Below, piece by piece: positions 57,474 to 64,000 of a stretch of DNA of 64,000 nucleotides (the stretch's first letter is position 1; each line of letters begins with the position of its first letter). The position numbers and the translations under genes are program-made. The notes beneath the pieces were generated by a model that saw only the letters and a program-made list of their open reading frames with translations, had not been told where the DNA came from and ran no database searches. Origin of the DNA: an uncultured Alphaproteobacteria bacterium. Lineage in GTDB: Bacteria > Pseudomonadota > Alphaproteobacteria > Methylaequorales > Methylaequoraceae. The stretch lies in assembly GCA_902522465.1 (NCBI GenBank), contig CABYVV010000001.1:180229-244228 (forward strand), given 5' to 3'.

Positions 57474-58733
57474 ATGTTTATTCATAAAGACTTAATTATC
57501 GTATTTTCTTTCATTTTTGTGCTGCTCTTAATTATGTTTGTTCTCATATTTAGAGATTTAAAAAGCATCAGTAAATCTCTGCAAAATTTCAAAGGAAAAC
57601 CGATCGAATCAGATAAAGTTTTTTTCTTTAATCTTTTCCAACCAATAATTTTTAATATTAATTTAGTCATAAACACCCTAAACGAGAAATCAAAATTCTC
57701 GAGATTAAGAGTATTTTTTTATGATTATTTCTTTAAATTTTTTCCTGACCCTCTTCTTATTATTGACCAAAACAACATCATTATTGAAATGAATGAACAA
57801 GCAATTAATTTTTTTGGAGAAGATTCAAAACAAAAAAATATTTTTTCAACAATTAGAATACCAGAGCTAAGCTCGCTTATCGACAAATCTGTAAAACAAA
57901 AGAAACCTGTTGAGAGAGAATTGAATTTAATTTATCCAAAAGAAAAAATCTTTAATGTTTGGGTTTCGGGTCGAAGAGATTTGGGTAAAAATAAATTAAA
58001 TTTTATTAGACTATTTGATACGACATCTCAGCATAATGTCCAAAATATTCAGAGAGATTTTATTGCAAATGCAAGTCACGAGTTAAAAACTCCAATTGCC
58101 TCAATCGTTGGATATTGTGAAATCTTATTAAACGAACCTCCCAAAACAAAATCAAAAAAAGAAGATTTTATTAAAACTATGTTTAATGAAGCAAGCCGAA
58201 TGTCATCTTTAGTTAAAGATCTCCTATCTCTTACACGTATTGAGAGGATTGAATATATCCCCCCTGAAGGCAAAGTTAATCTTAACGAAATTTTGAAAAA
58301 CATTCGACAAATATGTAATGAAAGAAAGTTTTTGAGCAAAACTAAGTATAATTTTTCAATTCCTAAAAGAAAAACTGAAATAATTGGTGATGAAGCAGAA
58401 TTACACCAAGTTTTTTTTAATATCATAGAAAATGCAATAACGCACAGTCAATCTAAGAAAACTATACAAATAAAATTAATTACAAAACCTAATACAATAG
58501 TGTTTCTAGTACAAGATTTTGGCATCGGAATTTCAAATCAAAATATTCCAATGTTGACCAAAAGGTTCTATAGAATTGATACCTCAAGACCAAGAGATAC
58601 TGGTCACACTGGCCTTGGTCTCTCAATTGTTAAGCATATTTTAAACAGACATAATGCACAATTAAATATTCAATCCGAAGTTAACAAAGGTTCATCATTT
58701 TCTATAACGTTTGAAAAATACAAATCTTCTTAA
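57474..58733 (+). CDS. phoR: PhoR-like sensor histidine kinase
   Basis: The 419-residue membrane kinase has an N-terminal membrane segment (LIIVFSFIFVLLLIMFVLIF), a PAS-like domain (PDPLLIIDQNNIIIEMNEQAINFFG), the H-box NASHELKTPIASIVGYCEILL (phospho-His about residue 202), and the N, G1 and G2 boxes NIIENAITHS, DFGIGIS and GHTGLGLSIVKH. NASHELKTPLTxIxGYxE is typical of PhoR. No phoB lies next to it. The porin and the lipid genes that follow carry Pho box-like sites, which supports the phosphate assignment. Confidence 0.82.
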   Translation: MFIHKDLIIVFSFIFVLLLIMFVLIFRDLKSISKSLQNFKGKPIESDKVFFFNLFQPIIFNINLVINTLNEKSKFSRLRVFFYDYFFKFFPDPLLIIDQNNIIIEMNEQAINFFGEDSKQKNIFSTIRIPELSSLIDKSVKQKKPVERELNLIYPKEKIFNVWVSGRRDLGKNKLNFIRLFDTTSQHNVQNIQRDFIANASHELKTPIASIVGYCEILLNEPPKTKSKKEDFIKTMFNEASRMSSLVKDLLSLTRIERIEYIPPEGKVNLNEILKNIRQICNERKFLSKTKYNFSIPKRKTEIIGDEAELHQVFFNIIENAITHSQSKKTIQIKLITKPNTIVFLVQDFGIGISNQNIPMLTKRFYRIDTSRPRDTGHTGLGLSIVKHILNRHNAQLNIQSEVNKGSSFSITFEKYKSS

Positions 58734-58825
58734 AAAATTGTCTTTTAATTTAGTGTTATTTTTGTTGATATAAATTGTTGTTGTTTTTTTGCAACAAACT
58801 TGTTTAAATTTCGTTAAAGGCTTGT

Positions 58826-58843
58826 TTGTCATAAAGTTGTAAC
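58826..58843 (+). promoter_or_regulatory. Pho box upstream of the porin gene
   Basis: TTGTCATAAAGTTGTAAC matches the two-repeat PhoB site CTGTCATAWAWCTGTCAY at 14 of 18 positions, with TGTCATAAA intact in the first half. A -10-like TATTTT begins at 58854, ten bases past the box, the spacing known for Pho promoters, where the box replaces the -35 element. The porin ATG is at 58888, after AGAGGGAA. Evidence is sequence only. Confidence 0.7.
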
Positions 58844-58887
58844 AAAAGATTACTATTTTGATTTTTTTAACTTTAAGAGGGAATATT

Positions 58888-60348
58888 ATGAAAAAATTAT
58901 ACTCGGGTATTGCAATCATGGCTGTGAGCGGTCTGATTACAAACGCCAAGGCACAAGACGTTGGTGCACAGATCGATGCACTGCAAAACGAAATTCTAAA
59001 AATGAAACAAGAAATGAATAAAGGTGGCAAAGGCAAAGCTTACTTTGAAAAAGGTAAAGGTTTACGTGTCAAAAGCACTGACGGAAAATATATGTTCCAA
59101 ATTAAAGGTAGGATTATGTATGACATTGGTGGTATCCTTGACTACGATGGGACACTGGCGGATGGTTCTACTGGCACAATTACTGAAGGTGGTTTAGGCT
59201 CAGAATTCAGAAGACTCAGATTCACATTAAAAGGTGAAGTTGGAAATGGATGGGGATTTGCATTTCAACCAGACTTAGCTGATGGAGGAGATGACCTGGC
59301 CGACAGAACAGTTATTTTTAAAGACGCACTAATTTATAAAAAGATCAAAGGAGTTGGTAAGCTGACTTTTGGTAACCAAAAAGCAGCCGCAGGTTTGTAT
59401 GAAAATACAAGTTCCAACAACTTGATATTTATGGAAAGACCGATGCACAATGAAACTATGAATTTTGGACATAGAGCAGGTATTGGATACGATACTTCAG
59501 GTGCATTTGGCAAAAGATTCCATTTAAAAGCTACAGTTTTCCATGGGATGGAAAGTGCCATCGAACAAAATATTTCTGACGGGTCAAATGCTATAACAGG
59601 TACTGAGAAAAACAACGAATCCTACGGAGCCAGTGTTGCAACTCAATACCAAATCCTTAATGATAAGAAATATGAAAGTTTCTTCGGAACTGGTTTGTCT
59701 GCGTTAGTAGGATTTCACTTTGGATATTTAGATCTTAGCAATACAGATACTGATGTTGGGGGTGATAGAAACGCACTAGGTAGATATGACACTAATAGTT
59801 CCCGAGCTAACGGACTTCATACACTTGTTGATAAGCCAATCGATTTAGGTGATGAAAATAATCTCAAAAATCACCATTTTTTTGGACCACAGTATAGTTT
59901 TATTCTTGGACAATTTTTCTCTCAGGCTGAATATCAGGTTGGTAAATATGAATATTCCGCTCCTAATACAATTGGTGCGCAATTTGCCGAAGAAGATTTT
60001 GATTTTCATGGTGGTTCTATAAGCATAGCGTATGCTTTCGATGGGAAATTTAAGCACAGTGGTAAAAAAGGAGCATTAGGTGGCTTAAAATGCAAAAGAC
60101 ATTGCTTTATGCCTAAGTATCAGTACGAATTCATAGATCAAACAGATCATGATACAAACGCTACTGGAACCGGAAATAGAAATGGAGGTTCTGGTGAGGC
60201 TCATACATTCGGTTTTAATCACTATTTTAATTCAAATGTAAGGTTAATGGCAGAATATACATTCGGTGATTATGGTTCAGATAACTCAAATGCAATGAGA
60301 GAATCTGAAATGTCATCAATTCAAGCTAGACTACATCTGAAATACTAA
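58888..60348 (+). CDS. OprP/OprO-like phosphate-selective porin family protein
   Basis: From ATG 58888 (RBS AGAGGGAA) the protein starts with a signal peptide (MKKLYSGIAIMAVSGLITNAKA) and a short coiled-coil (VGAQIDALQNEILKMKQEMNKGGK), then a beta-rich porin barrel with LRVKSTDGKYMFQIKGRIMYDIGG and FRRLRFTLKGEVGNGWGFAFQPDLADGG. The last residue region ends SSIQARLHLKY, an outer-membrane-type C-terminal aromatic. OprP/OprO proteins carry phosphate or polyphosphate. Richer GC and preferred codons suggest high expression. The Pho box, PhoR neighbour and a strong terminator make a single-gene phosphate-controlled unit. Confidence 0.85.
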   Translation: MKKLYSGIAIMAVSGLITNAKAQDVGAQIDALQNEILKMKQEMNKGGKGKAYFEKGKGLRVKSTDGKYMFQIKGRIMYDIGGILDYDGTLADGSTGTITEGGLGSEFRRLRFTLKGEVGNGWGFAFQPDLADGGDDLADRTVIFKDALIYKKIKGVGKLTFGNQKAAAGLYENTSSNNLIFMERPMHNETMNFGHRAGIGYDTSGAFGKRFHLKATVFHGMESAIEQNISDGSNAITGTEKNNESYGASVATQYQILNDKKYESFFGTGLSALVGFHFGYLDLSNTDTDVGGDRNALGRYDTNSSRANGLHTLVDKPIDLGDENNLKNHHFFGPQYSFILGQFFSQAEYQVGKYEYSAPNTIGAQFAEEDFDFHGGSISIAYAFDGKFKHSGKKGALGGLKCKRHCFMPKYQYEFIDQTDHDTNATGTGNRNGGSGEAHTFGFNHYFNSNVRLMAEYTFGDYGSDNSNAMRESEMSSIQARLHLKY

Positions 60349-60377
60349 GTTTTCCTTCCTTAGTAATCTCTAAAATT

Positions 60378-60409
60378 AAAAAGAGGCTTTATAAGCCTCT
60401 TTTTTTTTT
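60378..60409 (+). terminator. Rho-independent terminator of the porin gene
   Basis: AAAAAGAGGCTT-TAT-AAGCCTCTTTTT gives a 12 bp perfect stem with a 3 nt loop, followed by a run of T. It lies 30 bp after the porin stop. It is the clearest terminator in the window and separates the porin from the plcP-type gene. Confidence 0.9.
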
Positions 60410-60443
60410 GTGTTGTATCATATTAGTAACGCTATATGTGGTG

Positions 60444-60461
60444 TTGTAATAATTTTGACAC
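60444..60461 (+). promoter_or_regulatory. Pho box-like site upstream of the plcP-type gene
   Basis: TTGTAATAATTTTGACAC matches the PhoB consensus CTGTCATAWAWCTGTCAY at 13 of 18 positions. It sits 22 bp before the ATG at 60484. A -10 element is weak (CATGAT at 60474 or GATACA at 60470). Transcription from here would give a leader of only a few bases, and no Shine-Dalgarno is seen. The site is weaker than the one before the porin. Confidence 0.5.
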
Positions 60462-60483
60462 ATTTATTTGATACATGATATGA

Positions 60484-61284
60484 ATGGATGGCGTATCCTT
60501 TAAACATAATCGTTACAGAACAATATGGATTTCAGATGTTCATCTAGGTACAAGCGGTTGCAAAGCAGAATTGCTTTTAGAGTTTCTTAAAGTTTCAAAG
60601 TCCGAAAAAATTTTTCTTGTAGGAGACATTATCGATGGATGGCGATTAAAGAAAAAATGGTATTGGCCACAAGCTCATAACGACGTTATCCAAAAATTAC
60701 TTAGAAAAGCTAGGAAAGGAGTAAAAGTTGTATTTATACCAGGTAACCATGATGAGGCTGCGCGCAAATATATTGGTGTGAATTTTGGAGATATAATAAT
60801 AAAAAAAGAAGCTTACCATACCACTCTCAAGGGTAAGAAATTATGGATCATTCATGGAGATCAATTTGATAGCGTTATTAGACATGCGCGCTGGCTCGCA
60901 TATGTTGGTGACAAGGGTTATGCTATGTTAATCCGCTTAAACAATCTATTTAATAATATTAGACAATTTTTAAAGCTACCTTACTGGTCATTATCAAAGT
61001 TTATTAAACAAAAGGTAAAAAAAGCTGTTTCATTTATTACTGCCTATGAATTAGTAATGACTAAGGAGGCAAAAAGAAGAGGGTTTGATGGCGTTGTTTG
61101 TGGACATATACACAAAGCAGAATTCAAATCAATTCATGATATAATATATTGTAATAGTGGTGATTGGGTAGAGTCTATGACCGCGATTGTAGAACATCTC
61201 GATGGTAATCTAGAGATTGTTGACTGGTCATCTAGAATTTCTCAAGAGCATTCAAGTCACTTTCAGCTCCCACAAAAAACTTAA
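60484..61284 (+). CDS. plcP: PlcP-type metallophosphoesterase (phospholipase C family, COG2908 type)
   Basis: The 266-residue protein has all calcineurin-like metal motifs: ISDVHLGTSGCK, VGDIIDGW, PGNHDEAARKYIG, IIHGDQFD and CGHIHKAEF. The ITAYELVMTKEAKRRGFDGVVCGHIH and HARWLAYVGDKGYAMLIRLNN stretches match the PlcP group, enzymes that split phospholipids to diacylglycerol during phosphate starvation in alphaproteobacteria and are often annotated as LpxH-like UDP-diacylglucosamine hydrolases. The next gene is an Agt-like glycosyltransferase, the known partner, which supports PlcP. LpxH cannot be fully excluded without a tree. Confidence 0.8.
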   Translation: MDGVSFKHNRYRTIWISDVHLGTSGCKAELLLEFLKVSKSEKIFLVGDIIDGWRLKKKWYWPQAHNDVIQKLLRKARKGVKVVFIPGNHDEAARKYIGVNFGDIIIKKEAYHTTLKGKKLWIIHGDQFDSVIRHARWLAYVGDKGYAMLIRLNNLFNNIRQFLKLPYWSLSKFIKQKVKKAVSFITAYELVMTKEAKRRGFDGVVCGHIHKAEFKSIHDIIYCNSGDWVESMTAIVEHLDGNLEIVDWSSRISQEHSSHFQLPQKT

Positions 61285-61294
61285 TTTCCTTGTT

Positions 61295-62689
61295 ATGAAA
61301 ATAGTAATTATCTCAGATGCCTGGCACCCTCAAGTTAATGGCGTGGTCCATACGTTATCTAAAACAAAAGAACTTTTAGAAAAAAAAGGTCATAATGTTT
61401 TAATGATAACACCTAATCTGTTTAAAACATTTCCTTGTCCTACTTACCCTGAAATCCGATTATCTTTTTTTCCAGGGAACAAAGTTAAAAAGTTAATTAA
61501 AGAATTCAATCCAGATGCGATTCATATTGCAACTGAGGGTCCTCTCGGTATAGCAGGAAGGAATTATGTGGTAAAAAATGGACTTGTTTATACAACTTCA
61601 TTTCATACAAAATTTGCGGAATATATATATAAGAGAACTAAAATTCCTCTTTTTATAAGTTATGGTTATCTAAAATGGTTTCATAGTAAAGCACATAAAA
61701 TACTTGTTCCTACAAAATCAGTAATAGAAGATTTAAAAAAGTGGAATATACATAATACTACAATATGGCCACGAGGTGTTGATTTTAAGCTTTTCAAACC
61801 CCCTTTGCAAAAAAAGAAAAATGACAAACCGATATTGATAAACATAGGAAGAGTTGCTATTGAAAAAAACTTAGAAGCATTTTTAAAATTAGATCTCAAC
61901 TGTGAGAAATGGATTGTAGGTGATGGTCCAGATAGACGCAAACTCGAAAAAAAATATACAAATGTCAAATTTTTTGGTGAAAAAAAACAGCATGAATTAC
62001 ATGAATACTACGGAAAAGCAGATTTATTCGTTTTTCCAAGCAAAACCGATACTTTCGGACTAGTATTGCTAGAAGCTATGGCGTGTGGACTACCAGTAGC
62101 AGCATTTCCAGTTGCAGGGCCAATTAATGTTATTGGAAAAAGTGGCGCAGGGGTTCTAAATAAAAATCTTAAAATCGCGTGTTTAAATGCATTAAAAATA
62201 CCCGCCAGCAAACCTTTACATTATGTAAAAAAATTCACCTGGGAGAATGTTGTCAATATCTTTGAATCTAATCTACAAAATTCAAAAAAAAGGGATCCTA
62301 AAACATATGTCTTTAAAGAAAATCCACATAAAAAGAATACTGGGTTGAAGAGATTATATTTTGCTTTAATAAATAGTCTCTCAGGATTTATATTTGCTTT
62401 TAAAGAGGAGAGTGCTTTCAGACAAGAACTACTTCTCACTTTGATATTAATCCCTCTTGCTTTTATATTTCCAACCGAGACTACAGAAAAACTTCTCATG
62501 ATTGGAAGTATTATGCTTTTACTCATAATTGAATTACTTAATTCAAGCATTGAAGCCACTATTGACAGAATTTCTTTTTCACATCACGACCTTTCAAAAA
62601 GAGCCAAAGATTTAGGCAGTGCCGCTGTTCTTTGTTCACTTGCTTTTGTGTTTGTTACATATGTGTCAATATTGAAGAGATTTTTTTAG
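61295..62689 (+). CDS. Fusion of GT4 glycosyltransferase (Agt/SqdX-like) and DgkA-like diacylglycerol kinase
   Basis: The ATG at 61295 gives MKIVIISDAWHPQVNGVVHTL. The GT-B domain covers about residues 1-340, with TSFHTKFAEY, INIGRVAIEKN and DTFGLVLLEAMACGLPVAA (E-x7-E type). Residues 349-464 (62339-62686) form a full DgkA: FKEESAFRQE, three hydrophobic segments, and ELLNSSIEATIDRISFSHHDLSKRAKDLGSAAVL, with the Glu/Asn/Glu catalytic set intact. The GT would put a sugar on diacylglycerol and the kinase would phosphorylate the same lipid. It starts 10 bp after plcP, so it shares that transcript. The track start at 61217 lies in plcP. Confidence 0.85.
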   Translation: MKIVIISDAWHPQVNGVVHTLSKTKELLEKKGHNVLMITPNLFKTFPCPTYPEIRLSFFPGNKVKKLIKEFNPDAIHIATEGPLGIAGRNYVVKNGLVYTTSFHTKFAEYIYKRTKIPLFISYGYLKWFHSKAHKILVPTKSVIEDLKKWNIHNTTIWPRGVDFKLFKPPLQKKKNDKPILINIGRVAIEKNLEAFLKLDLNCEKWIVGDGPDRRKLEKKYTNVKFFGEKKQHELHEYYGKADLFVFPSKTDTFGLVLLEAMACGLPVAAFPVAGPINVIGKSGAGVLNKNLKIACLNALKIPASKPLHYVKKFTWENVVNIFESNLQNSKKRDPKTYVFKENPHKKNTGLKRLYFALINSLSGFIFAFKEESAFRQELLLTLILIPLAFIFPTETTEKLLMIGSIMLLLIIELLNSSIEATIDRISFSHHDLSKRAKDLGSAAVLCSLAFVFVTYVSILKRFF

Positions 62690-62760: not shown

Positions 62761-62784
62761 TAATGTGTATATACATTATTTTTT
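62761..62784 (+). terminator. Second weak terminator-like hairpin in the convergent gap
   Basis: TAATGT-GTATAT-ACATTA followed by TTTTTT on the plus strand. It overlaps the stop codon of the minus-strand fae-like gene and repeats the GTGTATATACA word seen at 62689. It may stop read-through from the plcP operon into the antisense of the fae-like gene. Confidence 0.35.
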
Positions 62785-63324
62785 GGAATCTAATGCTTTT
62801 TCAAAGTATTTATGAACAATTTTATCTTGGTTTTCTAAAAGCCAATCTATCGATGGCTCGTCCTTCATTGCTTTCTTTATTGCACTCGTGGTCGCCTTAC
62901 GATGAATATCAAAAAGTATTTTGTGATCTAAATTTTTGTCTTCAGCTACACTTGGATTCAACCAAACTGATACAATAATGCCTACATCATTAACTATTTC
63001 CTTTGGAATATAACCCTCTCTAACGGAATCTAACACACCATTAGCAATAGCTCCTTGAACTGTTCCCATTAAAATATTGGTGTATCTGTCGTCTTTGACA
63101 GTGACCTTGCTCACCATTAATGTTGCTGGTCTAACCATTACGTCTGTGTTCATTATCGCAAGAACTTTTGTATGTCCTTTAACTTGATTGCCTAGTAAGG
63201 TGGCGAAAGCTGTTCCAAATGGGCCGTTAAATTTTCCGATAACTACTTCCGGCTCAGCTGCTGTTCCTGGTGGTCCTCCAGCAATTAGTGACTCACCAAC
63301 TTTGATGTCAAAATTATCGCTCAT
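62776..63324 (-). CDS. Formaldehyde-activating enzyme (Fae) family protein, paralogue without the usual His motif
   Basis: The 182-residue protein reads GESLIAGGPPGTAAEPEVVIGKFNGPFGTAFATLLGNQ, VLAIMNTDVMVRPATLMVSKVTVKDDRYTNILMGTVQGAIANGVLDSVREGYIP and GIIVSVWLNPS, which is Fae-fold throughout. Canonical Fae, joining formaldehyde to tetrahydromethanopterin, has AHIDLIIG where this protein has AEPEVVIG, so the active-site His is replaced by Glu. No other methanopterin-pathway gene is visible. Its role may therefore differ. RBS AAAGGAGT precedes the ATG. It is 20 bp behind the XRE gene, likely in one operon, and looks richer in GC than its neighbours. Confidence 0.8.
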   Translation of the reverse strand: MSDNFDIKVGESLIAGGPPGTAAEPEVVIGKFNGPFGTAFATLLGNQVKGHTKVLAIMNTDVMVRPATLMVSKVTVKDDRYTNILMGTVQGAIANGVLDSVREGYIPKEIVNDVGIIVSVWLNPSVAEDKNLDHKILFDIHRKATTSAIKKAMKDEPSIDWLLENQDKIVHKYFEKALDSKK

Positions 63325-63343: not shown

Positions 63344-63547
63344 TTAAACCAGTTTCTTTAACTTTTTCTTAAGTTCTATCGCTTCACATGCTAATTTTAT
63401 ATATTTGGGTATTTGTATATCTTTTTCTCCTTTTTTACCCTTCTCATAATACTGAATCATTCTCCTTTTTAGGCCAAGTACATTAGCAGCCTCTGCTTGA
63501 GAAAAACCATTCTTTTTTCTCCATTTTTTGAACTGTTCTTTTTCCAT
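63344..63547 (-). CDS. Small XRE-type helix-turn-helix regulator
   Basis: From ATG 63547 the protein is MEKEQFKKWRKKNGFSQAEAANVLGLKRRMIQYYEKGKKGEKDIQIPKYIKLACEAIE, a bare HTH domain of 67 residues with no effector domain. FSQAEAANVLGL-x-RRMIQYYEKG is the HTH pair. The track adds a 21-residue hydrophobic lead that probably is not translated. It is upstream of the fae-like gene on the same strand and faces two palindromes in the shared divergent promoter region, so autoregulation is likely. Confidence 0.83.
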   Translation of the reverse strand: MEKEQFKKWRKKNGFSQAEAANVLGLKRRMIQYYEKGKKGEKDIQIPKYIKLACEAIELKKKLKKLV

Positions 63548-63589: not shown

Positions 63590-63618
63590 ATTACAAAATA
63601 ATATTGACATATGCGCAA
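63590..63618 (-). promoter_or_regulatory. Predicted promoter for the XRE-fae operon
   Basis: On the minus strand TTGCGC (63618-63613), a 17 bp spacer and TGTAAT (63595-63590) fit a sigma70 promoter at 3/6 and 5/6. The -35 box lies inside the first palindrome, so a bound regulator would cover it. The predicted leader to the XRE ATG at 63547 is about 36 bases. Confidence 0.45.
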
Positions 63619-63632
63619 TCAGTGCGTATATT
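63604..63632 (+). promoter_or_regulatory. Consensus sigma70 promoter for the right-edge gene
   Basis: TTGACA (63604-63609), exactly 17 bp, then TATATT (63627-63632). The palindrome at 63611-63629 fills the spacer, a classic repressor position. Start of transcription would be near 63639, just before the second palindrome, with the RBS AGGAG at 63672 and ATG at 63684 downstream. Confidence 0.7.
63611..63629. promoter_or_regulatory. Operator-like palindrome 1
   Basis: ATGCGCA-ATCAG-TGCGTAT is an inverted repeat with 7 bp arms and one mismatch. It lies between the -35 and -10 boxes of the plus-strand promoter and over the -35 of the minus-strand promoter. The same pattern recurs 30 bp to the right. 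Confidence 0.65.
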
Positions 63633-63640
63633 TATTAAAA

Positions 63641-63659
63641 ACGCGCAATAGTTGCGTGT
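63641..63659. promoter_or_regulatory. Operator-like palindrome 2
   Basis: ACGCGCA-ATAGT-TGCGTGT has the same arms and 5 bp centre as the first palindrome. Centre to centre the two are 30 bp apart, close to three helical turns, suited to cooperative binding on one DNA face. It lies about at the predicted plus-strand transcription start. Confidence 0.65.
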
Positions 63660-63683
63660 GGATAACTGCTTAGGAGACCATAT

Positions 63684-64000
63684 ATGTATGGACATTTGCT
63701 ATATTGGGGCTTTGTTTTTAAAAAAAGAAGCTTAGACAACCAAACGAAAAGAAAATGACTTGGGTTATTGTTTTTGTAACATTTTTTGGCCCTCTTTATG
63801 ATTCTGACGGCTTTGTAACAGACGTAAGTAAAACTACCACAGAAACATATAATACTCAGAATTCGTGTAGGTTTATGTCTGAGATAATTAACGGCCAACT
63901 TAAAAGCGCTTCAAACATAAAAGAAAATACCAATATTTTAAAAAAGAAGTATTCAGTTTGTTTGTCTTTTAGTGATTGGTCACACTATAAGTTAGATCAA
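63684..64000 (+). CDS. Unrecognised protein, partial at right edge
   Basis: This ORF is not in the track because it leaves the window. From ATG 63684 (AGGAG seven bases upstream) it reads MYGHLLYWGFVFKKKKLRQPNEKK, then MTWVIVFVTFFGPLYDSDGFVTDVSKTTTETYNTQNSCRFMSEIING and continues open for at least 105 codons. An inner ATG at 63756 (MTWVIVF) is an alternative start, which would place a hydrophobic segment at the N-terminus. No family is recognised. It is driven by the promoter at 63604 and so should be under the same palindromes as the XRE-fae operon. Confidence 0.55.

Follow-up and report, generated by a model that had tools for sequence, protein, structure and literature searches.

A 64,000-nucleotide stretch of contig CABYVV010000001.1 (hereafter the window), from an uncultured alphaproteobacterium of the family Methylaequoraceae (GenBank assembly GCA_902522465.1), carries close to its end four genes on the + strand that encode a PhoR-like sensor kinase, an OprP/OprO-family porin, a PlcP-type metallophosphoesterase and a protein in which an Agt-type glycosyltransferase is joined to a DgkA domain (Table 1). 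An earlier reading made from the letters alone (the sequence-only reading) had placed the kinase, the porin and a PlcP/Agt-like pair on one strand at these coordinates, and both the coordinates and the Pfam and NCBIfam models used to assign protein families bear this out; the porin, for example, scores 107 bits against the Porin_O_P model, whose cut-off is 20.9. The gene content of the locus is thus well supported by family models. We consider it likely that the locus is the left-hand end of a phosphate-starvation island in a bacterium of the order TMED127; in this island a Pho-controlled pathway would exchange phospholipid for glycolipid and its last enzyme would partition diacylglycerol (DAG).

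Table 1. Features of the locus, in window coordinates unless another locus is named.
Feature	Position	Strand	Size and evidence
phoR-like sensor histidine kinase, PAS-HisKA-HATPase	57474..58733	+	419 aa; HisKA and HATPase, TIGR02966 top model
Predicted Pho box TTGTCATAAAGTTGTAAC, 5' of porin	58826..58843	+	matrix rank 1
OprP/OprO-family porin (Porin_O_P)	58888..60348	+	486 aa; PF07396, 1.6e-30
Intrinsic-terminator-like hairpin GAGGCTT-TAT-AAGCCTC with T tract, between porin and plcP	60383..60410	+	direct sequence reading
Predicted Pho box TTGTAATAATTTTGACAC, 5' of plcP	60444..60461	+	matrix rank 2
plcP-type calcineurin-type metallophosphoesterase	60484..61284	+	266 aa; Metallophos, 3.4e-13
Agt-type GT4 glycosyltransferase domain, fusion residues 1-330	61295..62284	+	GT4 domains
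DgkA domain, fusion residues 347-464	62333..62689	+	PF01219 (DAGK_prokar), above cut-off, 6.3e-30; catalytic residues intact
fae, formaldehyde-activating enzyme	62776..63324	-	TIGR03126 above cut-off; convergent with agt-dgkA
Promoter and palindrome of the hypothetical genes	63600-63660; L112:12440-12610 and 12890-13004; also L118, L115

The glycosyltransferase and DgkA domains occupy one 464-residue reading frame (61295-62689, probable start ATG at 61295) that begins 10 bp downstream of plcP. Its Agt half is 45-52% identical to proteins encoded directly 3' of plcP in many Alphaproteobacteria, and its DgkA half matches DgkA structures (phmmer 9.9e-22); an AlphaFold model of the whole protein shows a GT4 fold, with PimA and BshA among the nearest solved structures, followed by a helical C-terminus. 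E28, E69, N72, E76, K94 and D95 are present in 11 of 11 fused DgkA copies, and the catalytic residues are identical to those of the Escherichia coli enzyme. The fusion that the sequence-only reading had described is real: a survey of 32 genomes of the family, most of them incomplete assemblies, found it at full length in 13, as separate neighbouring agt and dgkA genes in two and as dgkA alone in one, with neither present in the remaining 16. Within the family DgkA thus tracks plcP-agt, agt and DgkA occurring together in 15 genomes and both being absent from 16 (Fisher p 6e-8, a value that ignores phylogeny and incompleteness). The single genome with dgkA alone (G397, locus L120) reads porin-dgkA-fae, and a tblastn search of this strip detected no remnant of either agt or plcP. 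Another genome of the family (G396:C12, L121) has an additional, divergent copy of agt, situated between the end of a plcP-like frame and a gene for a UDP-glucose dehydrogenase; this enzyme could act as a source of UDP-glucuronate for glucuronosyl-DAG.

Beyond the family, 55 of 385 Alphaproteobacteria have DgkA, and frames of more than 450 aa that hold it occur only in the host family and in a second one, f109, all three examined members of which have plcP and Agt-DgkA. Family f109 is probably SAR116, and one of its genomes is probably that of the cultured strain Puniceispirillum marinum IMCC1322. In family f30 and in Burkholderiaceae plcP-agt has an unfused DgkA as its neighbour, as has agt in two gammaproteobacterial metagenome-assembled genomes; a DgkA within 5 kb would be expected by chance in about 0.3 of 55 genomes and was seen in nine, from three lineages. 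When each half of the protein was placed in a tree, the fused sequences of both families formed one clade (96% support for Agt, 98% for DgkA), within which the unfused agt/dgkA pair of genomes G142 and G410 is nested, and the fused copies of both families have an NPHKxNxG linker in common. The simplest history would be a single fusion, later split in the G142/G410 genus, as the position of both halves inside the fused clade suggests. Independent fusions in the two families are not favoured, given the single clade in both trees and the common linker; an assembly artefact can be rejected, since full-length frames occur in 13 genomes of the family and in two families, and a sequencing error behind the G142/G410 split is unlikely, as the two assemblies agree and both halves fall inside the fused clade.

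The fused DgkA domain is the sole recognised diacylglycerol kinase of the host genome, in which we found no second DgkA and no DAGK_cat kinase. We propose that, while the Agt domain would add a sugar to DAG to give a phosphorus-free glycolipid, the DgkA domain of the same polypeptide would alternatively combine DAG with ATP to form phosphatidate, which would return to phospholipid synthesis. The fusion would then act as a DAG branch point or valve, holding down the level of free DAG and controlling the extent, or the reversal, of the lipid swap. For the wider proposition, that two marine alphaproteobacterial groups possess a bifunctional branch-point enzyme choosing between glycolipid and phosphatidate, and that their membrane remodelling is thereby reversible or self-limiting, we see about even chances. 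To our knowledge, such a DAG switch enzyme has not been described before.

The main rival to a DAG valve is a DgkA domain that chiefly tethers Agt to the membrane, as a trimeric anchor and a scaffold that gathers DAG, its kinase activity being incidental. The short linker and the retention of the fusion across two families would suit such a role, as would membrane topology: the N-terminus of DgkA is cytosolic, which would put Agt at the inner leaflet. We nevertheless think it unlikely that anchoring is the principal function, because the catalytic residues are invariant in the 11 fused copies and because DgkA is a free gene in G142 and G410 and stands alone in G397, where it cannot anchor Agt. 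A different proposal would have the DgkA domain act on another lipid, such as undecaprenol, or in osmoregulated glucan metabolism, with the fusion ensuring no more than joint expression. Substrates vary between phyla among DgkA-family enzymes, and the fold alone does not reveal them; the sequence, however, follows the E. coli type, and congeners that lack plcP-agt have no DgkA, which argues against a general housekeeping enzyme and makes this proposal improbable.

Evidence that bears on common regulation of the fusion gene and its neighbours comes from the predicted Pho boxes. We built a Pho-box matrix solely from sites before pstS in relatives, leaving the window out; since these pstS sites were themselves chosen by a Pho-box-like score, the matrix is not blind to the known consensus, but it is independent of the window. 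Among the 127,966 positions of the window, the sites before the porin and before plcP that the sequence-only reading had pointed to rank first and second, at scores for which simulated sequence gave 0.025 and 0.375 expected positions per window, respectively. Both consist of two 7-bp direct repeats with an 11-bp period, like those before the pstS genes of relatives, and the exact pattern TTGTMAYNNNNTTGTMAY has a single occurrence per genome in the host and in its congener G241, in each case before the porin. The site before plcP has a lower score than those before pstS and draws its support from its position and from its conservation at -40/-41 in the family relatives examined, which span several genera. 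No Pho box was found upstream of fae or of a pair of hypothetical genes, one of them lysine-rich, that lies beyond it. The hairpin and T tract between the porin and plcP suggest that plcP should carry its own promoter, and the two sites would thus place two separate transcripts under PhoB.

The nearest public genomes to the host are single-cell genomes, among them AG-892-F10, our congener G241, which has been placed in the order TMED127 ("Methylaequorales"), a group of lanthanide-dependent marine methylotrophs (PMC12542740); a marine methylotroph as host fits with the fae gene. Indirect in-situ evidence comes from the Sargasso Sea, where pstS belongs to the most strongly transcribed genes of the host genus (AG-892-F10; PMC12542740), which is what an active Pho system would lead one to expect. 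The host contig finishes at the final base of the window, the last 1.4 kb of which are 97.8% identical to G241, so that this genome most likely shows what lies beyond the contig end. The strip of G241 starts with mutS (- strand), phoR, the porin, plcP, agt-dgkA, fae (- strand), two hypothetical genes, GAPDH and an MFS transporter, the last two forming a pair that recalls the ArsJ arsenate-export system. It continues with genes for a polyphosphate kinase, Ppx/GppA, a Pycsar-type membrane protein, an OlsB-like GNAT protein, an OlsA-like acyltransferase, a weakly glycosyltransferase-like product, an alkaline phosphatase and a SixA-like protein, and ends in pstS-pstC-pstA-pstB-phoU-phoB, which lie about 15 kb further on with the other phosphorus genes between.

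This organisation extends to other members of the family. Gene order is nearly the same in G142, from another genus, and the strip reaches pstSCAB-phoU-phoB there as in G241, which supports, at the sequence level, the suggestion of the sequence-only reading that sensing, uptake and membrane economy form one physical module. In relatives the phoR ortholog adjoins the porin, and it is linked to pst/phoU/phoB in G241, G142, G008, G395 and G400. An "empty" version without plcP-agt, phoR-porin-fae-pstS, is found in G008, of the same genus, and in G395, and G400 has this strip with GAPDH and a transporter inserted. In family f109, genome G381 has plcP and agt-dgkA beside phoR, pstS, pstC and pstA, with a gene for an OlsF-like acyltransferase-GNAT fusion adjoining. 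Comparison of plcP-agt homologues and their neighbours across related genomes, which the sequence-only reading had called for, thus recovers the phosphorus genes in several genera; judged by gene order, the phoR-pstS interval is a flexible phosphorus island, with or without lipid genes. That the genes are chance neighbours with no common regulation is very improbable: accidental gene order is possible in small genomes and fae lies within the same strip, yet the Pho sites hold the first two ranks in the window, other genera conserve the one before plcP, and phosphorus genes occupy the strip in several genera.

The identity of the metallophosphoesterase was assessed in a tree of the window protein and 20 other PlcP sequences, defined by similarity and agt neighbourhood and not by assay, against 24 LpxH sequences; the two groups were fully separated by long branches with 100% support. 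Position 80 is His in 21 of 21 PlcP proteins (GNHD, the window protein included) and Arg in 24 of 24 LpxH proteins (GNRD), and equivalents of the calcineurin-type PlcP metal ligands D8, H10, D41, N79, H114, H195 and H197 are all present. A search of PDB sequences with PlcP gave no match. LpxH, the assignment that the sequence-only reading had named as the one to count against it, together with a neighbourhood serving lipid A synthesis, can be dismissed at the sequence level as having next to no chance of being correct, since its weak model matches lie well under cut-off (45 bits against 134 and 40 against 190), the tree and the GNHD residue speak for PlcP, and a separate LpxI, the alternative enzyme to LpxH, is encoded in the host genome and its relatives.

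Taken together, these observations are consistent with a pathway in which phosphate shortage would lead PhoR to activate PhoB, encoded past the contig end, and PhoB would turn on two transcripts, one for the outer-membrane phosphate porin and one for plcP with agt-dgkA. By homology, PlcP would strip phosphorylated head groups off membrane phospholipids to yield the DAG over which the two domains of the fusion would then compete. Elsewhere, PlcP-Agt is a Pho-controlled glycolipid route (PMC4796936, PMC8528852, PMC8231724), and in Pseudomonas putida BIRD-1 the PHO-dependent lipid proteome includes a DAG kinase as well as PlcP (PMC5082522). Several points weigh against this proposal. A DAG kinase spends phosphate again, which seems counterproductive under starvation; the separate halves in G142 and G410 indicate that the fusion is not essential; and the co-occurrence of agt and DgkA is partly trivial, as most copies are halves of one gene and the genomes surveyed are relatives of one another. 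In the AlphaFold model, the linker and the surroundings of the DgkA loops are predicted with low confidence. The best model of the kinase, TIGR02966 (phoR_proteo), gives 281 bits against a curated cut-off of 334, so that the equivalog threshold is not passed and we name the protein PhoR-like. Finally, a search of the host assembly, which is incomplete, recovered neither phoU nor the pst operon; for phoU we attribute this to the contig end and to that incompleteness.

Comparison with known systems helps to separate what is published from what appears to be new. E. coli DgkA (b4042) belongs to the same family as the fused domain and has identical catalytic residues, but is a free-standing protein of 122 aa. 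It recycles DAG from membrane-derived oligosaccharide synthesis. The type 2 plcP-agt operon of SAR11 HTCC7211 and Erythrobacter, with agt as in Agrobacterium, resembles the window locus in having plcP directly upstream of agt and a putative Pho box, its expected products being MGDG and GADG (PMC4796936). It differs in that no fusion of Agt to DgkA is described there (PMC4796936), and in that the strip studied here includes phoR, the Pho-box porin and, in relatives, pstSCAB-phoU-phoB. PA3219 (PlcP) and PA3218 (Agt1) of Pseudomonas aeruginosa likewise form a plcP-agt operon with a Pho box, for which the glycolipid route has been proven genetically and chemically; DgkA goes unmentioned in that system, which has two Agt enzymes that differ in sugar specificity (PMC8528852). 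The P. putida BIRD-1 set shares the combination of PlcP and a DAG kinase in one phosphate-starvation programme, there with OlsA/OlsB, the kinase being a separate protein (PMC5082522). Our search for a glycosyltransferase-DgkA fusion, or for DgkA with PlcP, in open-licence papers found no description of the fusion, which leaves novelty unproven. As far as searched, PlcP-Agt remodelling under PhoB is already published, and the Agt-DgkA fusion and its TMED127 island are apparently new.

The sequence between agt-dgkA and the contig end holds further features. We do not think that fae is part of the Pho module. The gene cut by the window end (63755 onward) has a 102-aa product in G241, where the gene after it encodes a 205-aa protein with 34.1% lysine; the two (L112:12460-13619) match the description of AG-892-F10.CDS.256/257, two TMED127-only hypothetical genes that exceed 10^4 transcripts per million in the Sargasso Sea (PMC12542740), which most likely sit inside the phosphate island. 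Both are preceded, in several genera, by a promoter of the TTGACA/TATATT type whose spacer contains a palindrome of the form TACGCAATnnnTGCGTA. Beside them lies a gene for a 67-aa XRE-type helix-turn-helix protein (63344-63547, - strand), to which the start of the lysine-rich protein is related (41% over 58 aa). The pair is probably autoregulated, from what appear to be very strong promoters. A conserved micro-ORF lies at about 63684-63758 on the + strand (MYGHLLYWGFVFKK...), with a similar MLGH...YW.FV in two other genera; its stop and the start of the 102-aa gene overlap, which suggests translational coupling.

PlcP-Agt remodelling lets ocean bacteria get by on little phosphate. A natural fusion of a glycosyltransferase with a competing kinase offers a defined protein in which to study how the DAG that PlcP sets free is divided between glycolipid and recycling and, if our reading is true, may let the cell choose between a glycolipid and a phospholipid fate for a common lipid intermediate.

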